Part shown: positions 9,582 to 23,071 of the stretch, one piece after another
How positions within the stretch are numbered: position 1 is the first letter of the stretch
Layout: each line of letters opens with the position of its first letter
Source of the DNA: Gemmatimonadota bacterium
Lineage (GTDB): Bacteria > Gemmatimonadota > Gemmatimonadetes > Longimicrobiales > Gaopeijiaceae
Assembly (NCBI GenBank): GCA_028874995.1
Contig: JAPPGM010000161.1
Location: forward strand, 17,264-81,263
Reading direction: 5' to 3'
DNA length: 64,000 nt
Notes under the pieces: model-generated
Seen by the model: only the letters and a program-made list of their open reading frames with translations
Told to the model about the DNA's origin: nothing
The model's database searches: none
Translations under genes and position numbers: made by a program

Positions 9582-10985
9582 TCAATCGTGACGCCGAATC
9601 CGGTAGCCTTCCACTCGTTCCCGGCCCAGTTCGTCGCGTCGAACGGCGAGAAAGAAGTCGGTTCCCATCCAGCACGGGTTCCGATACCAGTGGCACGGCA
9701 CTTCCAGCATTGGTGCCGGGAGCACTCCGAGCCACCGTCCTTCAGCGCTGAAGACGCTCCAGCGGTCGGGTCCCCCCACCTCCGGCGCAGACCACTCCGA
9801 AACCCACAAGTGTCCCTCGGGGTCCACGAACAGGCCTGCGACGGGGGGATGGAAGTCCCGCCTCGGAATCGCTCGCAGGAGCGGCTCATCGAGACCCCGG
9901 GCCGCTAAGCCGTTCAAGGTGGCCAGGTAGGTGACCCATGCCCGGTGTGCTTCGTCCGAAACCGGCATCGGAGGAGTCGAGCGGCGAATGATCCGGACGG
10001 GCCGCCCGTCAAACGAGAACCGCCGGATCTCGTCGGCGGTCCCGTCGGCGACATATATGGTTGGGGGGTCCGCACCCGCTGCAAGGAATGCGTCGAGAAA
10101 GGTGAAAACCGGCCAGGGTACCGGCAGGCTGGCAGCCGGGATGTCCACTCCTACGGCTTCCACGCTCTTCCACACACCCAATGAGCTGGTAGCGTATTCC
10201 GGGTCAATCCGCACGAATTCCAGGGGTTGTCTGGCCAGCGTGCCGGCCGGGGGGTTGAACATCGGGTCATCCTCGATCCCGGTCACAAAGCTCCCATCCG
10301 CCAACGGGATGCGGCGCGATTCAGCTGACAGGCCGTTGACGGCCCCAAGCGCCTTGCCCAGGTCCACCGACCGCGTCCGGATGAGATCTCCGTCCGTATC
10401 GAAATAGCTGACCGGCCCGAACCACGAATCCCACACGGCCAAAGTGTCCGGGGGAAGGTACTGCAACTCTTCGGGGCTACTGAATTCTCCGGGGCCCTCC
10501 CCCTCTCCGCCCATGACCCGCGACAGCTCGCCGGTGGGCTTGAACAGATAAAGCTGTCGGCTTCCGCGGGATAGGACGGCGACGCGCCCGTCTTCGAGTC
10601 GCGCCAGCCCCGACACCTGCCATATCAGGTGGGCGGAATCACCCGTCAAGAGCGACCGATCGCCACCGCCGAGCACGATCTCGGGTTCCATGTCCATTCG
10701 CCAGAACCGGTCCGAAGAGTATTCCGGAGAGTGGTTCTCCACGATATCGATCTCTGCGGAGTCACGGATCGCGAACCCGGCGTCCGGTCCGGCCGAAATA
10801 CCGGCCTCCCGGTGATCGCACCCGGGCAGCACGGAAGACACCACGAAGACGGCGCTGAGCGCTACGCACCGTGCCACCCTTCGGACCGCACAATGCCACC
10901 ACCGCCACTCAGTTGTGGCCGCGTGGGTCGGGCCAGCCGCACTCGTCCGAATCCGGCCGGCCAAGCTCGTGAATTCCATGCCCAT
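9582..10985 (-). CDS. Six-bladed beta-propeller lipoprotein
   Basis: VALSAVFVVSSVLPGC lipobox; IRDSAEIDIVENHSPEY; VMGGEGEGPGEF motif shared with other copies in the window. Confidence 0.8.
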   Translation of the reverse strand: MGMEFTSLAGRIRTSAAGPTHAATTEWRWWHCAVRRVARCVALSAVFVVSSVLPGCDHREAGISAGPDAGFAIRDSAEIDIVENHSPEYSSDRFWRMDMEPEIVLGGGDRSLLTGDSAHLIWQVSGLARLEDGRVAVLSRGSRQLYLFKPTGELSRVMGGEGEGPGEFSSPEELQYLPPDTLAVWDSWFGPVSYFDTDGDLIRTRSVDLGKALGAVNGLSAESRRIPLADGSFVTGIEDDPMFNPPAGTLARQPLEFVRIDPEYATSSLGVWKSVEAVGVDIPAASLPVPWPVFTFLDAFLAAGADPPTIYVADGTADEIRRFSFDGRPVRIIRRSTPPMPVSDEAHRAWVTYLATLNGLAARGLDEPLLRAIPRRDFHPPVAGLFVDPEGHLWVSEWSAPEVGGPDRWSVFSAEGRWLGVLPAPMLEVPCHWYRNPCWMGTDFFLAVRRDELGRERVEGYRIRRHD

Positions 10986-11165
10986 GACCAGCTGCGAATC
11001 TACGACCTCCTGCCGGGCTGACAAAGGCTGTTGCGCCCCGCCGATTCCATCGGGTATCGTCCAGCTTCCAGCGGTTCGGTGGCAACCCGCACGGGCATTG
11101 TCCACGGGCCGCAAGCCCTGACCAAAGGCGCTGGCCCGCGGCCCGCGTGAGAAAGAGTCACCTGC

Positions 11166-13822
11166 ATGAGAATTCCGACCGTCACCGGATCTGCCCGGAC
11201 TCCGTACTTCACCGTGGCCACCCTGGCCCTGTTCGTGAACGCATCACCCCTCCACCCCCAGCCCCCCACCCCCGAGTCCGTACTCGGCCACCGCGTCGGC
11301 GCCGACTTCCACCTCGCCACCTTCGAAGAATCCATCGACTACTTCCACCAACTCGCCGCGGCCACCGACCGCCTCGAGCTCCGCGAAGTCGGCCGCACCT
11401 CCTTCGGCCGCCCCGTCTACATCGCGCTCATCTCCAGCGCCGAGAACCTTCGCAACCTCGACCGCCACCGCGAGATCGCGCTTCGCCTCGCCCACCCCCG
11501 CGGTCTCACCGACGCCGAAGCCCGCGCGCTCGCCGACGAAGGCCGCGCCCTGGTCCACATCGACGGCGGCCTCCACGCCAGCGAGGCCGCAACCCATCAG
11601 CACACCATCCAGCTCGCCTACGACCTCGTCGCCGGCGACGACGACCCCGAAATCGCCGCCATCCTCGACAACGTGATCCTGATGCTGTGGCCGTCGATCA
11701 ATCCCGACGGGCAGACGATGATCGCCGAGTGGTACCGGTCCAACCTGGGCACGCCGTACGAAGTCGCCCCGGCGCCGTTCCTCTACCAGAAGTACATCGG
11801 ACACGACAACAACCGCGACGGGTACATGATCAACCAGATCGAGTCGCGGATGGCCACCCGGGTGGCGCGCGAATGGGAGCCGCAGATCCTCTACAACCAC
11901 CACCAGAGTTCGCCCTTCCCGACGCGCATCTGGATTCCGCCCTTCGCGGAGCCGATCTCGCCGCACGTGCACCCGCTCATGTGGCGCACCGTCAACCTGA
12001 TCGGGATGTCGATGGCGCAGGCGAGACGGGGCTCTACCGCTACGCGACGCCCGGCTTCTACACGATTCAGGACTTCCCCCCGCGCACGCGCGAGCTGCGC
12101 CCGGAATCGCTCTACAGCAGCCCGTGGGAGGGTGGGTGGTGGCGGCTGCGGGACGCGGTGGACTACATGCTGACGGCATCGATCTCGGTACTGGATTTCG
12201 CGGCCAAGTACCGGCGGGATGTCCTCTACAACCGCTACCAGGCGGGGCGCGACGTGATCGCGCAATACACGGATGGGCCGCCGTACGCGTACTTCATCCC
12301 GCGGGAGCAGCGCGATCCGGTGGCGGCTGTCGAGATGCTGCGCCGACTGGCGTACAACGGGATCGAAGTGCACCAGCTGAGCGCGGGCGTGACCCATGAC
12401 GGGATCGCGCACCCGGCCGGCACCTGGGTGATCGCAATGGACCAGCCGTTCGCCAACTTCGTGCGGCAGCTCTTCGCGGTGCAGGACTATCCGGACCTGC
12501 GCCAGTATCCGGAGGGGCCGCCGGACCAGCCGTACGACGTGTCGGGGTGGACGTTGCCGTACCTGATGGACGTGCGGGTGGTCGAGGCGGCCTCGCCGTT
12601 GGGTGATGAGGTGCGGGGGGCGATGACGGGGTTGGGTGATGGTGGGGAGGTGGGCGATGCAATGGTCGCGTGGGACGCCGAGGTGGACGATGCCGCCCCG
12701 TTCGACTCGCCCCCCGGGGTCGGGTTCGACAGCCACCCGGTGGCGGCTGCCATCGTCCCGCCGCCGGGGAGTGATGCGGGGGGCGGGGCGCTCTTCGTCG
12801 ATCCCGCGCAGAACAACGGCTTCAAGGCGCTGAACCGGGCGTGGGCGGCGGGCGGCCAGGTACGCTTCGTGCCGGGCACGGTGGGCGAAGAGGGGGCGGC
12901 GGGCACCTCCGGCCACTACGTCGTCTCCGGTCTCTCGGGGAGCGCCCGCAGCGCGCTGGTGTCGAGCCTGCACCTACGCGCCTCCACACGCGGCGGCAAC
13001 GACGGCACGCGCCTCGCCCAGCCCCGGATCGGCCTCTACCGCCCCTGGAGCGCGTCCATGGACGAGGGGTGGACCCGTTGGCTGCTCGAAGCGTACGACT
13101 TCGACTTCACCAGCCTCTACAACCCCGACATCCTCGCGGGGGACCTCCGCGACCGCTACGACGTGATCATCGTCGCCGACATGGGTGCGGGACAGATCCT
13201 GAACGGCTTCGCCAAGGGGTCGGTGCCGCCCCGCTACGAGGGGGGGATCGGGGGGAGGGGGGTGCGGGAGCTGGACGCGTTCGTCCGCGGCGGGGGCACG
13301 CTGGTGACGCTGAACAACGCGAGCATGTTCGCCATTCAGCAGTTCCACCTGCCGGTCCGCAACGTTATCGCGGACCTCGAGTCCGCCGACTACTTCATGA
13401 GCGGGTCGATCGTCGAGATGGAGGTGGACCCGTCCCATCCGGTCATGTCCGGCATGTCGGAGCGGGCCAAGGTGGTGGTCGAGCGCAGCCCCGTCTTCAC
13501 CACCGAAGAGGGATTCGAGGGTGCAGTCCTGGCGAAGTACCCCGGGGATGGCTCGCCCCTCCTCTCCGGCTACCTTCTCGGCGAAGAGCACCTGCAGGGC
13601 TACGCGGCCGCCCTGGACGTGGCCCACGGGGATGGCCGGGTCCTGCTGCTCGGAATGAGGCCGCAGTGGCGCGGCCAGCCTTTCGGCAACTTCCGTATCC
13701 TGTTCAACGCGGCGGTGTACAGCGGCGGAGTGGCGGCGGTCGCGCCCTCGAACCCCGATTTCTGGGAGGCGCCTGAAGAAGATGAGGCGGCGGAGGGTAC
13801 GGAGGGCAGGAGCGGGAATTGA
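11166..13822 (+). pseudogene. M14-family zinc carboxypeptidase-like protein, frameshifted with probable internal deletion
   Basis: Frame 11166..~12022 has HIDGGLHASEAATHQ (HxxE) and GHDNNRDGYMINQ; continues from ~12020 in frame of ORF 11147..13822 with ETGLYRYATPGFYTIQDFP ... to 13822. Confidence 0.82.
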
Positions 13823-14082: not shown

Positions 14083-14886
14083 ATGTTGCGACTGGCCGCG
14101 CTGGGCCTTCTGGCCCTCTGGCCCGCCGCCCTCGGAGCCCAGCAGGGCACCATCACCTACACCCACTCGATCAACATGGACCTGGAGTTGCCGCCGGAAC
14201 TCGCGATGATGGATCTGGGTGAAATCCCCTCGGCGATGTCCCGGGATCTGCTCCTGCACTTCGACCCGTCGGCGTCGCTGATGGTCCCGGCACCGATCGG
14301 GAAGAGAGAGAACGGGAACAAGAAGGTGGAGGTGATGGAGGTGGCCATGTTCGCCGAAATGGCCATGTTCATGGCTTCGAGCGGCATGAACATCGGGGGG
14401 AAGCTGACAAGGACCGAGGCCCCGGCCCTGGAGTCATACATCGACCTTGCCGACGGAAGGATCGTCGAGACCCACGAGTTCATGGGGCGCACCTTCCGCG
14501 TTGTCGACGAGCGGCCGGAATACCAATGGCGGCTGACCGGCGAGCAGGCGGTGCACCTGGGGTACATGGTGATCAAGGCCACCGCCGAGCACGACAGCAC
14601 CGCCATCGAGGCCTGGTTCACGCCGGAGATCCCGGTCGGGGCCGGGCCGGGGCCATATGGGGGCCTGCCGGGGATGATCCTCGTGCTCTCCGCGGACGAC
14701 GGTCACATCAAGTACTTCGCGACGGAGATCGCGTTGGGGGATGTCGAGGAGGGGCTCATCAAGATGCCGGACGAGGGCAAGGAAATGTCGAAAGAAGAGT
14801 ACGACAAGGTCGTTGCGGAGAAGATGGAAGAGATGCGGAAGCTGATGGGCGGGCGAATCCGTGGCATTGGGGGAGGTGGCCGATGA
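14083..14886 (+). CDS. GLPGLI family protein (module copy 1)
   Basis: ATG 14083, signal peptide MLRLAALGLLALWPAALGAQ; QQGTITYTHSI...; GGLPGMILVLSADDGHIKYFATEI. Confidence 0.85.
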   Translation: MLRLAALGLLALWPAALGAQQGTITYTHSINMDLELPPELAMMDLGEIPSAMSRDLLLHFDPSASLMVPAPIGKRENGNKKVEVMEVAMFAEMAMFMASSGMNIGGKLTRTEAPALESYIDLADGRIVETHEFMGRTFRVVDERPEYQWRLTGEQAVHLGYMVIKATAEHDSTAIEAWFTPEIPVGAGPGPYGGLPGMILVLSADDGHIKYFATEIALGDVEEGLIKMPDEGKEMSKEEYDKVVAEKMEEMRKLMGGRIRGIGGGGR

Positions 14887-17744
14887 ACAGCCGGCGCATG
14901 GGTCGATGGAGCGGTCGCGGCGTGTTGGCGTGTGGTGCGGTTCTGGCTTTCGCAGCGATCGCCGCCCCGCTCGAGGCGCAGGAGGAATACGAGGTCACGG
15001 GGCAGGTTACGGATTCGGCGGGGACGCCGCTGAGAAACGCGATGGTCGTCGCGCTCACTCAGACGGATTCGGTCTTGACGGAGTACGCCCTCACGAATGG
15101 CGACGGCCGATTTGTCATAGGGGACCTTCCCCCGAACCGGTACATCCTGCAGGTTACGCTGATCGGCTACGCGACCTTCCGGCGCGACTTCGAGATCACC
15201 GATGCCGACGTCGACGCGGGCACGGTCGACATGACGGTCATGGCCGTGGAGCTGGACTCGCTGGTCGTGAGCGTGGAGCACGTCCCGTTCATCAACCGGG
15301 GGGACACGCTCAGCTACAACGTGCTCGCCTTCCCGACTCCGCCGAATGCGACGGTGGAAGACCTGCTGAAGCGGCTGCCCGGGATCGAAGTGGACACGGA
15401 GGGCAACATCAAGGCGCAGGGCGAAGATGTCGAGAACGTCCTCGTGGACGGCAAGGAGTTCTTCGGCAAGGACCCCAAGGTCGCCACGCAGAATCTGCCC
15501 GCCGAGGCCGTGAAGCAGGTGGATGTCTATGACAAGCAGTCGGACATGGCCGAGTTCACCGGAATCCCCGACGGCGACGACGAGCGCACCATAGACCTGA
15601 AGCTCCGCGAAGAGGCCAGGCGCGGGTATTTCGGCCAGGCGAGCGGTGGCTTCGGGGGGGACATGAACACCCAGGCGCGTCTCGGCGCGCTGGCCAGCAA
15701 CGAACTGCGCTACGACGGCAGGCTCACGCTGAACCGGTTTTCGCCGACCATGCAGCTGTCCATGAACGCGAACACCAACAATACCAACCGGTCGGGGTTC
15801 TCGATGGACGGCCTCGGGGAGATCATGGCCATGGGTGGAGGCGGTTTCATCGTCGAGGAGATGATGGCGCGTGAGGGGTTCGGGGGAGGTGGCGGCGGGT
15901 TCGGCAATTCGCGTGGTTTGGGACTGAACCTGAGCCGGGACTTCGGCGACAAGGGATGGATTCGGGGCAGCTATTCCCTCAACGACTCGGACAACCGCCA
16001 GGACCGCATCCTGCAGCAACAGGCGCTCTTCGGTGCCAACGTCGCGTCACAGATCGCCGACAGCAGCCAGCAGGAGTCGGGCAACACGGGCCACCGCCTC
16101 AACCTGAACGGTCAGTACGCCTTCTCGCCGGGGCACCAGCTGAGGGTCAGGGTGAACGCCAACACAAGGTCGTCCACCATGGATTCCTTCCAGCAACGCG
16201 TGACCCGGACCGCGGACGGGCAGCCGCTGAACACGGCGGTCACCAACTACGACGTCAACAGCAGCAACTGGAACGGGGACGCGCGGGTCACCTGGCGCAA
16301 GCGTCTGGGAGAGGGCGGCCGCAGCATCGTGGCCGAGTTCAACAGCGACCTTCAGAACTCGGATCAGGTGGCGGACCTGGGATCGACGATCACCGGCGAG
16401 TCCGGTGGAGGGTCCGGCGGCGGCGGTGCGACGGAGGATATCCTGCAGGAGCAGTCCAACACGGGGCGGAGCTGGAACAACACCGCGCGGATCTCGTTCA
16501 CGCAGCCGCTGGGAGAACGCTACGTGATGGAGGTCTACGGCCGGGGCCGCACGAGGGCCCAGGATCAGGACCGCGAGGTCTTCGACATCGTCGGCGGTGG
16601 ACTGATCCCCAACGACGAGCTCACTTCGGGGTTCGAGCGCACATACAACTACTACAACGCGGGGGCCCGCTTCAGCCGGAACAGCGAGAAGTCGTGGGTC
16701 ACGCTGGGGTTGAACGCGCAGCGATCCGACCTGAACGGGACGATCGTGGGCCGCGACGAGACGATCAGCAACGGCTACACCCATCTGCTCGGCAACCTGG
16801 ACCTCAAGTGGGAGGTGAAGGACGGCCAGTTCTTCGGCTTCGGCTACAGCACATCGACCCGCGAGCCCTCCCTGAACCAGCTGCAGCCCTTCGTCGACAA
16901 CCGGGACCCGATCAACGTGTACGTCGGCAACCCGGATCTGGACCCCTCGTACTCGCACCGGCTGAGCACCAACTACCGCTTCTTCGACCAGTTCAGCTTC
17001 GTCAACTTCTCCACCCGGGCGGGATTCAACTACACGAGCAACCCGATCGCCAACTCGCGGGTCTTCGACGACCAGGGATTCCAGACGATCTCGCCTATCA
17101 ACACCGACGCCTCCTGGTCGGTCAACGGCAACACGAACTTCGGGACCCCGATCCGGAAGCTGGGCGTCGACATCGACCTGTCGTACGGAATCAGCTACTC
17201 CGAGGGCACGGAGGTGATCAACCGGTCGCTGAACGACAGCCGGGTCATCCGTAACACCGTAGGGGCCAGCCTGTCGAACAGGAACAAGGAGAGGTTCGAG
17301 ATCAGCGCGGGCGGGAACTTCACCTTCAACGACGTGGAGTACTCGCTGAACCAGGCGCTCAACCGCGACTACGTGAACAGCCGGTACAACGCGAGAGGCA
17401 GAGTCTACCTGGGAGCCTGGACCTTCGGTTCGACCTTCAGCTGGATGGTGTACGACCAGAACCTGTACAACATGGGCGCGGGACGCCGTGGAGAGTCGTA
17501 CTCGCCGTCTCCGGGCCGCAACGTCGCCCGCTGGGATGCGAGGGCGTCGCGGCGGCTGCTGAATGACCGGGCCGAACTGACGATCCAGGCCTTCGACCTG
17601 CTGAACCAGAGCCAGGCGGTCAACATCTCAAATTCGGGCAGCTTCATCCAGGAGTCGCGGACCCAGTCGATGGGCCAGTACTTCATGGTGCGTGTCATGT
17701 ACCGGCTGGGGATGATGGGTTTCGGGCGGCCCGGGCGGGGGTGA
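14883..17744 (+). CDS. Outer-membrane beta-barrel protein with N-terminal CnaB/carboxypeptidase-regulatory-like domain (module copy 1)
   Basis: ATGA overlap with the upstream GLPGLI gene; EEYEVTGQVTDSAGTPLRNAMVVAL; PGIEVDTEGNIKAQGEDVENVLVDGKEFFG plug-like segment; long barrel region ending GQYFMVRVMYRLGMMGF. Confidence 0.87.
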   Translation: MNSRRMGRWSGRGVLACGAVLAFAAIAAPLEAQEEYEVTGQVTDSAGTPLRNAMVVALTQTDSVLTEYALTNGDGRFVIGDLPPNRYILQVTLIGYATFRRDFEITDADVDAGTVDMTVMAVELDSLVVSVEHVPFINRGDTLSYNVLAFPTPPNATVEDLLKRLPGIEVDTEGNIKAQGEDVENVLVDGKEFFGKDPKVATQNLPAEAVKQVDVYDKQSDMAEFTGIPDGDDERTIDLKLREEARRGYFGQASGGFGGDMNTQARLGALASNELRYDGRLTLNRFSPTMQLSMNANTNNTNRSGFSMDGLGEIMAMGGGGFIVEEMMAREGFGGGGGGFGNSRGLGLNLSRDFGDKGWIRGSYSLNDSDNRQDRILQQQALFGANVASQIADSSQQESGNTGHRLNLNGQYAFSPGHQLRVRVNANTRSSTMDSFQQRVTRTADGQPLNTAVTNYDVNSSNWNGDARVTWRKRLGEGGRSIVAEFNSDLQNSDQVADLGSTITGESGGGSGGGGATEDILQEQSNTGRSWNNTARISFTQPLGERYVMEVYGRGRTRAQDQDREVFDIVGGGLIPNDELTSGFERTYNYYNAGARFSRNSEKSWVTLGLNAQRSDLNGTIVGRDETISNGYTHLLGNLDLKWEVKDGQFFGFGYSTSTREPSLNQLQPFVDNRDPINVYVGNPDLDPSYSHRLSTNYRFFDQFSFVNFSTRAGFNYTSNPIANSRVFDDQGFQTISPINTDASWSVNGNTNFGTPIRKLGVDIDLSYGISYSEGTEVINRSLNDSRVIRNTVGASLSNRNKERFEISAGGNFTFNDVEYSLNQALNRDYVNSRYNARGRVYLGAWTFGSTFSWMVYDQNLYNMGAGRRGESYSPSPGRNVARWDARASRRLLNDRAELTIQAFDLLNQSQAVNISNSGSFIQESRTQSMGQYFMVRVMYRLGMMGFGRPGRG

Positions 17745-17784
17745 GCTCCTAACAAACGGGTCTCCGAGCGTGTCCCAGTAAGTG

Positions 17785-17821
17785 GGCGGGCTGTCGGCGC
17801 TTCTAAACGCCGCAGCCCGCC
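17785..17821. promoter_or_regulatory. Strong intergenic hairpin between the two module copies
   Basis: GGCGGGCTG-T-CGGCG / loop CTTCTAAA / CGCCG-CAGCCCGCC, 14 bp stem with a single bulged T, no T tract. Confidence 0.55.
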
Positions 17822-17862
17822 GGTTGACCAGGACAGTCCTTCCCCACAGGAGACCAGGGAGC

Positions 17863-18765
17863 ATGCGCCTGCTTCGCCGTTTCATTCGGATTCCCCAGCG
17901 AATCGGCTCCGGAATCACCTGCCCGCGCGATCGTGGCGGGATCGCTTTCGGTGTGGCCGTGACAGGCCTGGCCATTCTTGTGGCGCCGGCCCCGCTGGCC
18001 GCTCAACAGGGAACGATCACCTACAACCATGTGGTCAAGCGGGAGCTTCCGCCCGGCTTCGCGCAGAGGATGCGGGAGCCCCCGCCCCCGCAGACGAACA
18101 CGGTGCTGGTCCACTTCAGCCCGACCGTGTCGCTGATGGTCCGCAGCGCGAATCCGCGTCGTCAGGGTGAGGGCGGACGGCGCTTTGGCGGTGGGGGAGA
18201 CCGTGCGGTGGACGGAGCCCGTTTTCGTGATCGACGCGGAGGGGGGCGCTTCGGCTTCGGCTTCAGGCCGGGTGCCAGCCCCGACCAGGCCACTACCCTG
18301 CAGGCCGCCTACCTGGACTACGCGGAGGGGATCATGGTCGAAGCCCGTGGTTTTCTCGGCCGGACCTTCCGCGTGACGCGCGAACGTCCCACGTACGCTT
18401 GGCGCATCGGGACGGAACAGGCGGAGCACCTCGGCTACACGGTGATGAAGGCCACCGCGGAGCACGACAGCACGACCGTGGAGGCGTGGTTCACGCCCCA
18501 GATTCCTGTCGCTGGCGGCCCGGCATCCTACGGGGGACTGCCCGGGATGATCCTGGTGCTCTCGCTGAATGACGGACAGACGCAGTATCAAGCGACGGAA
18601 GTGGCGCTGAAGGAACTGGAAGCGGGACTGATCGCTCCGCCGGAAGACGGCGACGAGGTCTCGTACGAGGAATTCGAGAAGCTCGTAAGGGAGCGGATCG
18701 AGGAGATGACAAGATCGAGAAGGCCCCCCGGATCGGACGGCGGGCCACGGGAGAATGAACAGTGA
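17863..18765 (+). CDS. GLPGLI family protein (module copy 2)
   Basis: QQGTITYNHVVKRELPPGF; GGLPGMILVLSLNDGQTQYQATEVAL; paralogue of 14083..14886. Confidence 0.83.
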   Translation: MRLLRRFIRIPQRIGSGITCPRDRGGIAFGVAVTGLAILVAPAPLAAQQGTITYNHVVKRELPPGFAQRMREPPPPQTNTVLVHFSPTVSLMVRSANPRRQGEGGRRFGGGGDRAVDGARFRDRRGGGRFGFGFRPGASPDQATTLQAAYLDYAEGIMVEARGFLGRTFRVTRERPTYAWRIGTEQAEHLGYTVMKATAEHDSTTVEAWFTPQIPVAGGPASYGGLPGMILVLSLNDGQTQYQATEVALKELEAGLIAPPEDGDEVSYEEFEKLVRERIEEMTRSRRPPGSDGGPRENEQ

Positions 18766-21614
18766 ATAGCCGGAAGCAAAACGCGCCGGCGCGCCACGTA
18801 GAAACCGGCCGGGGCGCGTGCGCCCGGTTCCTGCCGGTCCTGGCGTGTGCAGCCGCCTTCCTCACCGCGGCAACGCCCGTCCGGGCACAGCAGGAATACG
18901 ATGTGCGCGGCTCGGTCGCGGACTCCGCGGGCGGGGCCATGCAGAACGCCATGGTGGTGGCCCTGAGCAGGGAAGACTCGGTGCTCGTGAAGTATGCCCT
19001 CTCGAACGCCGACGGAAACTTCGTCCTCGAGAACCTGCACCCCGGCGCGTACGTCCTGCAGGTCACGCTGATCGGGTACGCCCCCATTCGGAACGACTTC
19101 GAGGTGACCAGCGCCGATGTCGACCTGGGTTCCGTGACCATGACCATGGAGGCGATCGAGATCGATTCGCTGGTGGTCAGCATCGAGCACGTCCCCTTCA
19201 TCAACCGGCGGGACACGCTCAGCTACAACGTGAACGCCTTCCCGACCCCCCCGAACGCGATGGTCGAGGAGTTGCTGCGCCGCCTTCCCGGGATCGATGT
19301 CGACACCGACGGCACGATCACGGCGCAGGGCGAGGAGGTCCAGAACGTCCTGGTGGAGGGCAAGGAGTTCTTCGGCCGGGATCCGACGATCGCCACGCGC
19401 AACCTGCCGGCCGATGCCGTCAAACAGGTCGACGTCTACGACAAGCAATCGGACATGGCCGAGTTCACGGGAATCCCCGACGGCGAGGACGAGCGCACGA
19501 TCGACCTGAGGCTCCGCGAGGAGGCCAGGGTCGGGTACTTCGGCCGCATGACCGGCGGCTTCGGGGGCGACGTGAACAACGCCGGCCGTCTGGGTCCCAC
19601 CATCGGCACCGACCCCGTTGGCAACGACCTGCGCTACGACGGCAGGTTCAACCTGAACCGCTTCTCGCCGACCCAGCAGCTGGCCCTGACCGCGAACACC
19701 AACAACGTCAACCAGGAAGGGTTCTCGTGGGAGGATGGAGGCGGACGTGGTGGTGGCGATAACGGATTCACCGAGTCGGTGGGGCTCGGATTGAACGCCA
19801 GCCGCGACTTCGGCAGCGACAACACCTGGATCAGGAGCAGCTATTTCCTGAGCGAGGTGGACAACGAGCAGAACCGGACCCTGCAACAGCAGGCGCTCTT
19901 CGGCGCGGATGTGGCGTCGCTGGTCGACGAGACGACCGACCAGGAGTCGGGCAACAACAATCACCGGTTGAACCTGAACGGACAGTACACCTTCTCGCCC
20001 GGGCACCAGTTGCGCATACGGGCCAACATGAACGCCGGATCCTCGTCGTCCGAGTCGTTCCGCGATCGCGTGACCCAGACGGTCGACGGGCAGCCTCTCA
20101 ACACCGCTTCGACCACCAACACCGTAACGGGCGACCAGCAGCGCGGGGATGTCCGGCTCACCTGGCGCAAGCGCCTGGGAGACAGCGGCCGCAGCCTGGT
20201 GGCGGAGCTGCGCGGTGCGCTTCAGAATTCCGATCGCGTGACCAATCTCGAGTCGACCATCACGGGCGAGTCGCGCGGCGGGCGCGACCAGGACCGGCAC
20301 ATTCTGCAGGAGCAGAACAACAACGGCGAGAACTGGAACAACTCCGCGCGGTTCTCGCTCACGCAGCGGCTGGGTGACTCGTATTCGATGGAGGTCTTCG
20401 CCCGCGCCAACACCGAGGACCAGGACCAGGACCAGTCGGTCTACGATCTCCGCGGCGACGAGAAGATCCGCAACCCCGACCTGAGCTCAGGCTACCAGCG
20501 CGCCTACGGCTACATGAACGCCGGGGCCCGCCTGAGCCGCAACTCGGAAAACTCCTGGATCACGCTCGGGTTGCGGGGGCAGCGATCGTCGCTGGAAGGG
20601 ATTCTCGTGGACCGCGACGAGACGATCACCAGCGGCTACACGCACCTGCTCGCCAACCTGGACTTCAGGTGGCAGTTCAAGGATGACCAGACGATCAGCT
20701 TCGAGTACGACGGCTCTACCGATGAACCGTCCCTCACGGAACTTCAGCCGTTCGTCGACAACCGCGACCCGATCAACGTGTACGTCGGGAATCCCGACCT
20801 CCAGCCCGAGTACACGCACGAGTTCGAGGCCGATTACCGCTTCTTCGATCAGTTCAGCTTCCTGAGCGTGTACCTGCGAACGGATTTCGAGTACACCACC
20901 AACCCCATCGCACGCGCACGCGTCTTCGACGAACAGGGCTTCCAGACGGTCACTCCGATCAACACCGACCCGGAGTGGTCCGCCGGTACGAGCGTCAACT
21001 TTGAAACGCCGATCAGAAGGCTGGGCGTGGACGTGGAACTGGACTACCGGGCGGGCTACTCCAGGGGATGGGAGCAGGTGAACCGGCAGACGAACCAGAG
21101 CCGCGTATTGAGAAACACCGTCGAGGCCAGCCTGGAGAACCGCACCAAGGACCTCTTCGACATTCGCTTGGGCGCGAACTTCACCTTCAACGACGTGGAG
21201 TACTCACTGAACCAGTCGCTGGACCGCGACTACGTGAACAGCCGCTACTACGCGAACGGGACGCTCTACCTGGGGGCCTGGACGCTCGGGTCGACCTTCA
21301 ACTGGAGGGTGTACGACGAGGACATCTACAGCCAGGGGAGCGGCGGCGAGGTCAACACACCGGGCAGGAACGTCGCGCGCTGGGACGCCCGCGCTTCGCG
21401 GCGGCTGCTGAACGACCGGGCCGAACTCGAACTCCGGGCCTACGACCTGCTCAACCAGAACCAGGCGGTGAGCATCTCCAATTCAGCCAGCTTCATCCAG
21501 GAATCGCGCACCGAGTCGCTGGGACAGTACTTCATGGTGCGGGTCATGTACCGGCTGGGGATGCGGGGTGACTTCGGGCGGCCGGGTCGTGGGAGAGGGG
21601 GGCGGGGACGGTAG
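18762..21614 (+). CDS. Outer-membrane beta-barrel protein with CnaB-like domain (module copy 2)
   Basis: Collinear paralogue of 14883..17744 (HVPFINRRDTLSYNV, YDKQSDMAEFTGIPDGEDERTIDL, NVYVGNPDLQPEYTHEF, GQYFMVRVMYRLG). Confidence 0.87.
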   Translation: MNSRKQNAPARHVETGRGACARFLPVLACAAAFLTAATPVRAQQEYDVRGSVADSAGGAMQNAMVVALSREDSVLVKYALSNADGNFVLENLHPGAYVLQVTLIGYAPIRNDFEVTSADVDLGSVTMTMEAIEIDSLVVSIEHVPFINRRDTLSYNVNAFPTPPNAMVEELLRRLPGIDVDTDGTITAQGEEVQNVLVEGKEFFGRDPTIATRNLPADAVKQVDVYDKQSDMAEFTGIPDGEDERTIDLRLREEARVGYFGRMTGGFGGDVNNAGRLGPTIGTDPVGNDLRYDGRFNLNRFSPTQQLALTANTNNVNQEGFSWEDGGGRGGGDNGFTESVGLGLNASRDFGSDNTWIRSSYFLSEVDNEQNRTLQQQALFGADVASLVDETTDQESGNNNHRLNLNGQYTFSPGHQLRIRANMNAGSSSSESFRDRVTQTVDGQPLNTASTTNTVTGDQQRGDVRLTWRKRLGDSGRSLVAELRGALQNSDRVTNLESTITGESRGGRDQDRHILQEQNNNGENWNNSARFSLTQRLGDSYSMEVFARANTEDQDQDQSVYDLRGDEKIRNPDLSSGYQRAYGYMNAGARLSRNSENSWITLGLRGQRSSLEGILVDRDETITSGYTHLLANLDFRWQFKDDQTISFEYDGSTDEPSLTELQPFVDNRDPINVYVGNPDLQPEYTHEFEADYRFFDQFSFLSVYLRTDFEYTTNPIARARVFDEQGFQTVTPINTDPEWSAGTSVNFETPIRRLGVDVELDYRAGYSRGWEQVNRQTNQSRVLRNTVEASLENRTKDLFDIRLGANFTFNDVEYSLNQSLDRDYVNSRYYANGTLYLGAWTLGSTFNWRVYDEDIYSQGSGGEVNTPGRNVARWDARASRRLLNDRAELELRAYDLLNQNQAVSISNSASFIQESRTESLGQYFMVRVMYRLGMRGDFGRPGRGRGGRGR

Positions 21615-21626
21615 GGGCGCGCTCCT

Positions 21627-22874
21627 CTACCGATTCAGGCGATACCCCTCCACCCGTTCGACGCCGGTGGCGGGGTCCGTGCGGACTCCCAGGATCAGGT
21701 CCTCGCCCACCCACGGCGGACGCCCGCGGAACGGGATTGTCAACGTACCGAGCCAGCGCCCCTCGGGGTGGAACACGCTCCACCGGCCCGCCTGGTGACG
21801 TACCCAAAGATGGCCCGTCGCATCCACCAGGAGGCTGCTTACCGGGGGATGGAAGTCCTGCGGCGGCAGGGCGTCCAGTGCTTCCCTACGAGCCCAGTGG
21901 TTCAACTCCAGAATCCCCACCTTCGCGCGCTCCCGCTCTTCGTCGGTGATCGGGATCGGACCGATCGTGCGGCGAATGATCCGCTGCAGATCGCCTGTGG
22001 GGGAGAACTGGTGAACCTCGTCCCGGTCCCCGTTGCTCACGTATATCGTCAGCGGATCTCCCCCCGCGGCCACATGTGATATCACGCCAAAAAGGGGAAA
22101 AGGCCACCGGGTGGTGGGATCGAAAGGCCGGGAGATGCGCTGTTCGATCCCGCCCCACCAGCCCAATGAATGCGCCACGTAGGCGGTATCGATCCTGACG
22201 AATCCCCAGTCTGGCCGGAAGAATTCGTCCGATTCCGGAATCGGTACGTCGCGGTGCACGATCACCAGAAAGGACCCGTCGGCCAGGGGCATGTGAATCC
22301 TCTCGGGCGGTGTCTGGCCGGGGATGCGGGTCTGCTCGAAGATTCTGCCCACATCGATCCGCCGGTGTTTCACCACGGTGCCGGCGGTATCGAAGTAGGA
22401 GACGTAGCCGAACCAATCGCTCCAAACGGCCAGGGTGTCGCCCGGGAGGACTTGCAGATACGCCGGATGGTTGAATTCGCCCGGACCCTCCCCCGCGCGG
22501 CCGATCGACTTCGACAGCCCGCCCGAGGGGTGGAACAGCCGAAGTGACTTGCTGCCGCTGGAGAGAACCGCGACCCGCCCGTCCGAGAGGCGGCCCAACC
22601 CTGCGACCTGCCAGATGAGATGGACGGAATCCTCCGTGGCGGCACCGAGGCCCGGGTCGCCGATGACGATGACGGGTTCGGGATCGATGGTCCAGGAGTC
22701 CGTGGTGGCCCACTCGGGAGCATGATTCTCGACGATGCGGACGCCGGCCGAGTCGCGGATCGTGACCGCGGGGGGCGTGTCGGGCTCCAGCTCCGGGGGG
22801 CGAGGCTCGCAGGCGGCGGTGGTCGTTGCCAGGAGCAACGCGAGCGGGATTCGGGATCGGGAGCGTTGCAGCAT
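21627..22874 (-). CDS. Six-bladed beta-propeller lipoprotein
   Basis: Lipobox LALLLATTTAACEP; IRDSAGVRIVENHAPEW; GRAGEGPGEF; close paralogue of 9582..10985. Confidence 0.82.
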   Translation of the reverse strand: MLQRSRSRIPLALLLATTTAACEPRPPELEPDTPPAVTIRDSAGVRIVENHAPEWATTDSWTIDPEPVIVIGDPGLGAATEDSVHLIWQVAGLGRLSDGRVAVLSSGSKSLRLFHPSGGLSKSIGRAGEGPGEFNHPAYLQVLPGDTLAVWSDWFGYVSYFDTAGTVVKHRRIDVGRIFEQTRIPGQTPPERIHMPLADGSFLVIVHRDVPIPESDEFFRPDWGFVRIDTAYVAHSLGWWGGIEQRISRPFDPTTRWPFPLFGVISHVAAGGDPLTIYVSNGDRDEVHQFSPTGDLQRIIRRTIGPIPITDEERERAKVGILELNHWARREALDALPPQDFHPPVSSLLVDATGHLWVRHQAGRWSVFHPEGRWLGTLTIPFRGRPPWVGEDLILGVRTDPATGVERVEGYRLNR

Positions 22875-23071
22875 GACGTTGTCAGACTTCGGTGAGGACC
22901 ATTCGGGTGCGACAGGGGGCCGTGGCAGGGGCATTCGAGATAGCGTGGGCCGGTTTGCGGGGCAACCGGGGTTGTCCGGGGGTCGAACGGCGTATTGGTT
23001 GAGTCGATGGTCACCTGAGGGTCGACGCGAGTAAGATGTCCCGGCCTTGAACTCTTCCGCGCAGATGCCGC

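Follow-up and report, generated by a model that had tools for sequence, protein, structure and literature searches.

TonB-dependent transporters can be encoded together with a dedicated partner, as in SusC/SusD, where the two genes form one unit. SusD is a surface lipoprotein, and its fold is other than that of the GLPGLI-family protein (G) described here. Among periplasmic carriers, LolA acts on all lipoproteins, and no pairing of it with a TonB-dependent transporter is known. The bowl domain of PNGases, the closest described relative of G, has a unique structure and an unknown function, and it is dispensable for PNGase activity (PMC9522356). The function of the XusA domain that corresponds to the N-terminal domain of our barrel protein (B) has likewise been stated to be unknown (PMC13142918). 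The open-licence literature that names the GLPGLI family gives no function for it; the family is listed there in tables of regulons or transcriptomes.

Organization of the two-module locus

The window, i.e., the whole 64,000-nucleotide stretch of Gemmatimonadota DNA that was analysed, contains two collinear G-B pairs at 14083-17744 and 17863-21614, and both the ORFs and the identities between the copies confirmed this arrangement, which had been proposed in a first-pass annotation. In module 1, G1 (14083..14886, + strand) encodes a GLPGLI-family protein of 267 aa with the Sec signal peptide ALGA/QQGTITY, and B1 (14883..17744, + strand) encodes a TonB-dependent-transporter-like protein of 953 aa with an N-terminal carboxypeptidase-regulatory-like domain, a probable plug and a β-barrel. 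In module 2, G2 (17863..18765, + strand) encodes a GLPGLI-family protein of 300 aa with the Sec signal peptide PLAA/QQGTITY, and B2 (18762..21614, + strand) encodes a TonB-dependent-transporter-like protein of 950 aa. The ATG start codon of B1 lies within the G1 stop (ATGA) and the GTG start codon of B2 within the G2 stop (GTGA), as the first reading had indicated, and these overlaps suggest that G and B are translationally coupled in both modules. G1 and G2 share 47% aa identity (E 6e-70), while B1 and B2 share 63% over 960 aa (E 0) and 71% at the DNA level over 3.3 kb. This likeness is far above chance and, judging from these identities, the duplication of the module is old. In the 4.5-Mb source genome, G1 and G2 are the only GLPGLI genes, and B1 and B2 are the only genes with strong PF14905 matches.

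Directly upstream of the first module lies a gene for an M14 zinc carboxypeptidase (11147-13822) whose reading frame appears to be broken near 12,000-12,170; either true decay or an error in the assembly may account for this, and in the relatives L077, L078 and L085 the gene is a single open frame of 978-996 aa. Two paralogous beta-propeller-like lipoproteins are encoded on the minus strand on either side of the modules, at 9582-11114 and 21627-22934; they fell into one cluster, and one of them weakly matches DUF5128.

Between B1 and G2, we identified a bipartite promoter-like element that is conserved in the genus, CTAAC-N16-GTGTC (17749..17774, + strand), which a close-pattern search found as a single copy in the source genome. 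The element occurs 24 times in the loci searched (3.44 Mb, both strands counted) and, except for three unrelated places, it is located shortly 5′ of a GLPGLI gene, at most 100 bp from the open frame. Of the matches near GLPGLI genes, nearly all belong to the downstream module, about ten of them being independent, as several loci overlap. Neither G1 nor any other upstream module that was examined has the element on its 5′ side, and a scan for sigma-70 promoters found nothing. CTAAC-N16-GTGTC looks like a candidate promoter of the ECF-sigma type; thus, module 2 may be separately controlled. A GC-rich stem-loop directly past the element (17785..17821, + strand) is a possible 5′ leader structure of G2; it is variable in relatives, and the whole B1-G2 intergenic stretch has a z of -4.1.

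The GLPGLI protein

G1 and G2 scored 107.6 and 101.7 bits, respectively, against TIGR01200 (GLPGLI), about twofold above the curated cut-off of 50, and both carry the GLPG(L/M)I motif as YGGLPGMILVL. Across 70 sequences, W133, P173 and L179-P180-G181 are invariant. The leader, as read from the sequence, is of the signal-peptidase-I type, ends in A/QQG and contains no lipobox; thus, G is probably a soluble protein of the periplasm.

The structure of G was predicted with a pLDDT of 84.7. Its best Foldseek match is the bowl domain of PNGF-II (E 1e-9), which was also recovered by the G sequence profile (E 7e-10), and both the sequence and the predicted structure additionally match the bowl-like N-terminal domain of B. 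massiliensis PNGase (7ZGN). Further structural matches were obtained to VioE (E 5e-4) and to ependymins (1e-3 to 1e-2), both stronger than the weak matches to LolA/LolB (E 0.05-0.2, prob about 0.7-0.9, TM 0.2-0.4). Profile searches detected no sequence relation of G to LolA/LolB, LprG, VioE or ependymin, and no relatives of G1 were found in viral contigs. Based on the predicted fold, G may belong to a broad half-barrel group whose members often bind hydrophobic ligands, which we take as a lead and not as proof.

The barrel protein

The second gene of each module had been described as a CnaB/OMP barrel. The CnaB-like part corresponds to the carboxypeptidase-regulatory-like N-domain (PF13620; 52.6 and 46.1 bits in the two B proteins, cut-off 32.3), and this domain, together with a profile match to XusA and the Foldseek results, indicates that the whole protein is better called a TonB-dependent transporter. 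B1 and B2 scored 125 and 131 bits against PF14905 (cut-off 27). A profile built from 61 barrels matched XusA (9GBC) across the N-domain and plug (E 6e-11), as well as isolated N-domains of other TonB-dependent receptors. The Pfam plug domain gave no match in B1 or B2; nonetheless, the B profile aligns with the XusA plug.

The predicted structure of B2 (pLDDT 82.5) starts with a beta-sandwich, which is followed by a mixed region taken to be the plug and then by a long run of barrel strands. In the mature model, strands are predicted throughout residues 200-891, consistent with the large β-barrel, of approximately 22 strands, that is expected of a PF14905-type transporter. The best 50 Foldseek matches listed against solved structures were all TonB-dependent transporters or their complexes, and the model aligns to plugged transporters along most of its length. 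On the evidence of profiles and model, B is TonB-dependent-transporter-like, with an N-domain, a probable plug and a barrel; the XusA and Foldseek matches led us to abandon the idea of a purely structural barrel. A stretch at the N-domain/plug junction, VELDSLVVSV, is a candidate TonB box, picked out by eye only, and the source genome contains 11 TonB_C matches (TonB C-terminal domains). Three motifs listed in the first-pass annotation are indeed kept in both copies, and GQYFMVRVMYRLG, located in the last strand, is strand-level as it had been described; FINR.DTLSYNV and DKQSDMAEFTGIPDG are instead located in the linker/plug.

Evolutionary history of the duplication

Several species of the genus have the tandem arrangement. 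The G tree sets the upstream copies apart from the downstream ones, all of which fall in a single clade (support 100/99); the duplication is thus older than the divergence of two sub-lineages. The barrel tree instead places the two copies of each sub-lineage, upstream and downstream, as sisters (support 100). Topology tests rejected the joining of upstream and downstream G copies in the group of the window (p 9e-11) and in the other group (p 0.001), as well as a clade of downstream B copies (p 7e-39); these p-values are optimistic, the groups having been named after quick trees were seen, and the log-likelihood gaps are large (53, 36 and 304). The discordance signal in B comes from barrel residues 270-945 and is present in each half of this segment (p 1e-7 and 1e-9); the N-domain and plug did not resolve the topology.

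From this pattern, we infer homogenisation of the barrels through gene conversion as the likeliest and simplest cause. The discordance could also have arisen without gene conversion, if a duplicated barrel had been inserted on two independent occasions behind a G-B-G order that already existed; such a history would fit any function. A G-B-G order without a second barrel does occur in two genomes, G061 and G173; however, their extra G falls in the lone-G clade, outside the downstream clade, and the tandem barrels are all located at the same overlapping or near-overlapping site behind G2, so we regard this alternative as not very likely. In these two G-B-G loci, the second GLPGLI gene lies 3′ of the barrel, at 7129-8013 in L154 and at 6898-7845 in L156.

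Within the genus, the extra lone GLPGLI genes group as a single derived clade. Genomes with one or two barrels contain as many as five GLPGLI genes, of which some are lone. Lone GLPGLI genes without a barrel were observed in L149 (a tandem pair), L150-L153, L155, L157, L158 and L161-L163.

Recurrence of the pair

The first-pass annotation had suggested that G and B are a partner pair, and a survey of GLPGLI-OMP adjacency had been set beforehand as its refuting test. Among 200 genomes spread over Gemmatimonadota, 32 contain a GLPGLI gene and 37 a full-length barrel; G is located directly 5′ of B on the same strand for 40 of the 45 barrels, and every genome with G also has B (32/32). A handful of genera account for these counts, which are therefore not independent, yet several families are spanned. 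The five barrels without an upstream G all belong to genus g4, and GLPGLI is also absent elsewhere in those genomes. In this genus, full-length barrels without GLPGLI were observed in L165, L166, L054-L056, L058 and L059. When the lone g4 barrels were compared with the paired ones, nothing clear was found in the way of interface changes, only seven scattered substitutions.

In a sample of 41 Bacteroidota genomes, with pairing counted by hand, 13 of the 24 GLPGLI loci examined directly adjoin the barrel type, and nine are clearly unpaired, six of these in one genome. The pairing was seen in Saprospiraceae, Crocinitomix and Rhodothermales, in both gene orders. A GLPGLI gene adjoins approximately 12 of the 31 clear barrels, including the three closest relatives. 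The Bacteroidaceae/Prevotellaceae barrels found via the plug motif stand alone. Those sharing YDKQSDM were discarded as candidate pairs because the neighbours tested were not GLPGLI genes. Additionally, arrays of 3-8 close GLPGLI genes were noted in Prevotellaceae/Bacteroidaceae-type genomes (G214, contig C29:65000-97000; G212, contig C48:8200-10800). No third gene is conserved beside G-B outside the genus.

Because the adjacency recurs in both phyla, a partnership between G and B is likely. The one-to-one cognate pairing that had been implied is weakened, since the tandem barrels were homogenised and the GLPGLI genes were not, lone GLPGLI genes occur in genomes with one or two barrels, and in one genus the barrel has no GLPGLI partner. 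The same observations bear on the possibility that G acts in the periplasm as the dedicated chaperone or assembly factor of its barrel, being translated first and escorting nascent B to the outer membrane. Such a role would agree with the upstream, translationally coupled position of G in nearly all Gemmatimonadota and with its never occurring there without B. Nevertheless, full-length B lacks an adjacent G in g4 and in many Bacteroidota, some genomes have two to five G genes per one or two B genes, with the lone G derived within the genus, and G is 3′ of B in several Bacteroidota; we therefore consider a chaperone unlikely. It is also quite unlikely that the adjacency is historical, with G being a protein of general use in the periplasm or envelope whose only tie to B, physical or functional, is their common operon. 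Lone G and lone B genes both exist, and the correlations between G and B distances (r 0.84-0.88), similar for the N-domain, plug and barrel and thus uninformative, are those expected from shared descent alone; however, the pairing survives across two phyla while every other neighbour changes outside the genus.

Proposed role of G and B

The reading that we tentatively favour, at somewhat less than an even chance, is that G and B represent one type of TonB-dependent transporter served by exchangeable periplasmic ligand-handling partners. One message would yield B, as the outer-membrane transporter, and G, as its soluble periplasmic partner, in coupled amounts. B would import a ligand from the cell surface using TonB energy, and G, as a LolA/VioE-like half-barrel, would contact the periplasmic face of B at the N-domain/plug and would either take over the ligand after its passage through B or condition its release. 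The tandem duplication within the genus would have been followed by repeated homogenisation of the barrels, so both modules would probably recognise the same ligand class outside, while the diverged G proteins, and lone G elsewhere, might provide for different periplasmic fates or expression. A strict cognate pair would be expected to co-diverge, yet the membrane/extracellular part of B is alike and G differs, which argues for exchangeable partners. Against this, the only strong fold match of predicted G is the PNGase domain, which has no described function and is dispensable to the enzyme; the LolA-type matches are weak, and the barrels of genus g4 and of many Bacteroidota lack G.

Also unlikely is the opposite direction, in which B exports and G is a carrier or cargo passed to it from the periplasm, as has reportedly been proposed for the Myxococcus TonB-dependent transporter Oar: the LolA-like fold of G is that of outward lipid carriers and several G per B would fit several cargoes with one exit, but G, as far as its sequence can be read, has neither an obvious T9SS-type C-terminal domain nor a lipobox, and most TonB-dependent transporters are importers.

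More broadly, in Bacteroidota and Gemmatimonadota the GLPGLI proteins as a general class could be soluble partners that assist TonB-dependent transporters from the periplasm, with several exchangeable partners per transporter type, the transporters evolving in concert and the partners diverging; we put this forward as a possibility, but a doubtful one. GLPGLI is a common Bacteroidota family, and its persistent pairing with one transporter type is a concrete functional lead, one that can be tested because the barrels were homogenised and the partners diverged.

Comparison with known systems

The half-barrels LolA/LolB, LprG, VioE and ependymin have a weak to moderate Foldseek similarity to predicted G. 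PNGF-II and B. massiliensis PNGase are closer by both profile and fold; however, their bowl domain is fused to an enzyme, whereas G stands alone beside a transporter. G-B also differs from SusC/SusD in that G, encoded upstream and with a signal-peptidase-I-type leader and no lipobox, is not a SusD-like surface lipoprotein. On the transporter side, B, of the PF14905 type, shares the N-domain, the barrel and probably the plug with XusA of the XusAB ferric-siderophore system (9GBC, PMC13142918); the XusA partner, XusB, is a surface lipoprotein, whereas the partner of B is a GLPGLI protein that is predicted to be soluble and periplasmic.
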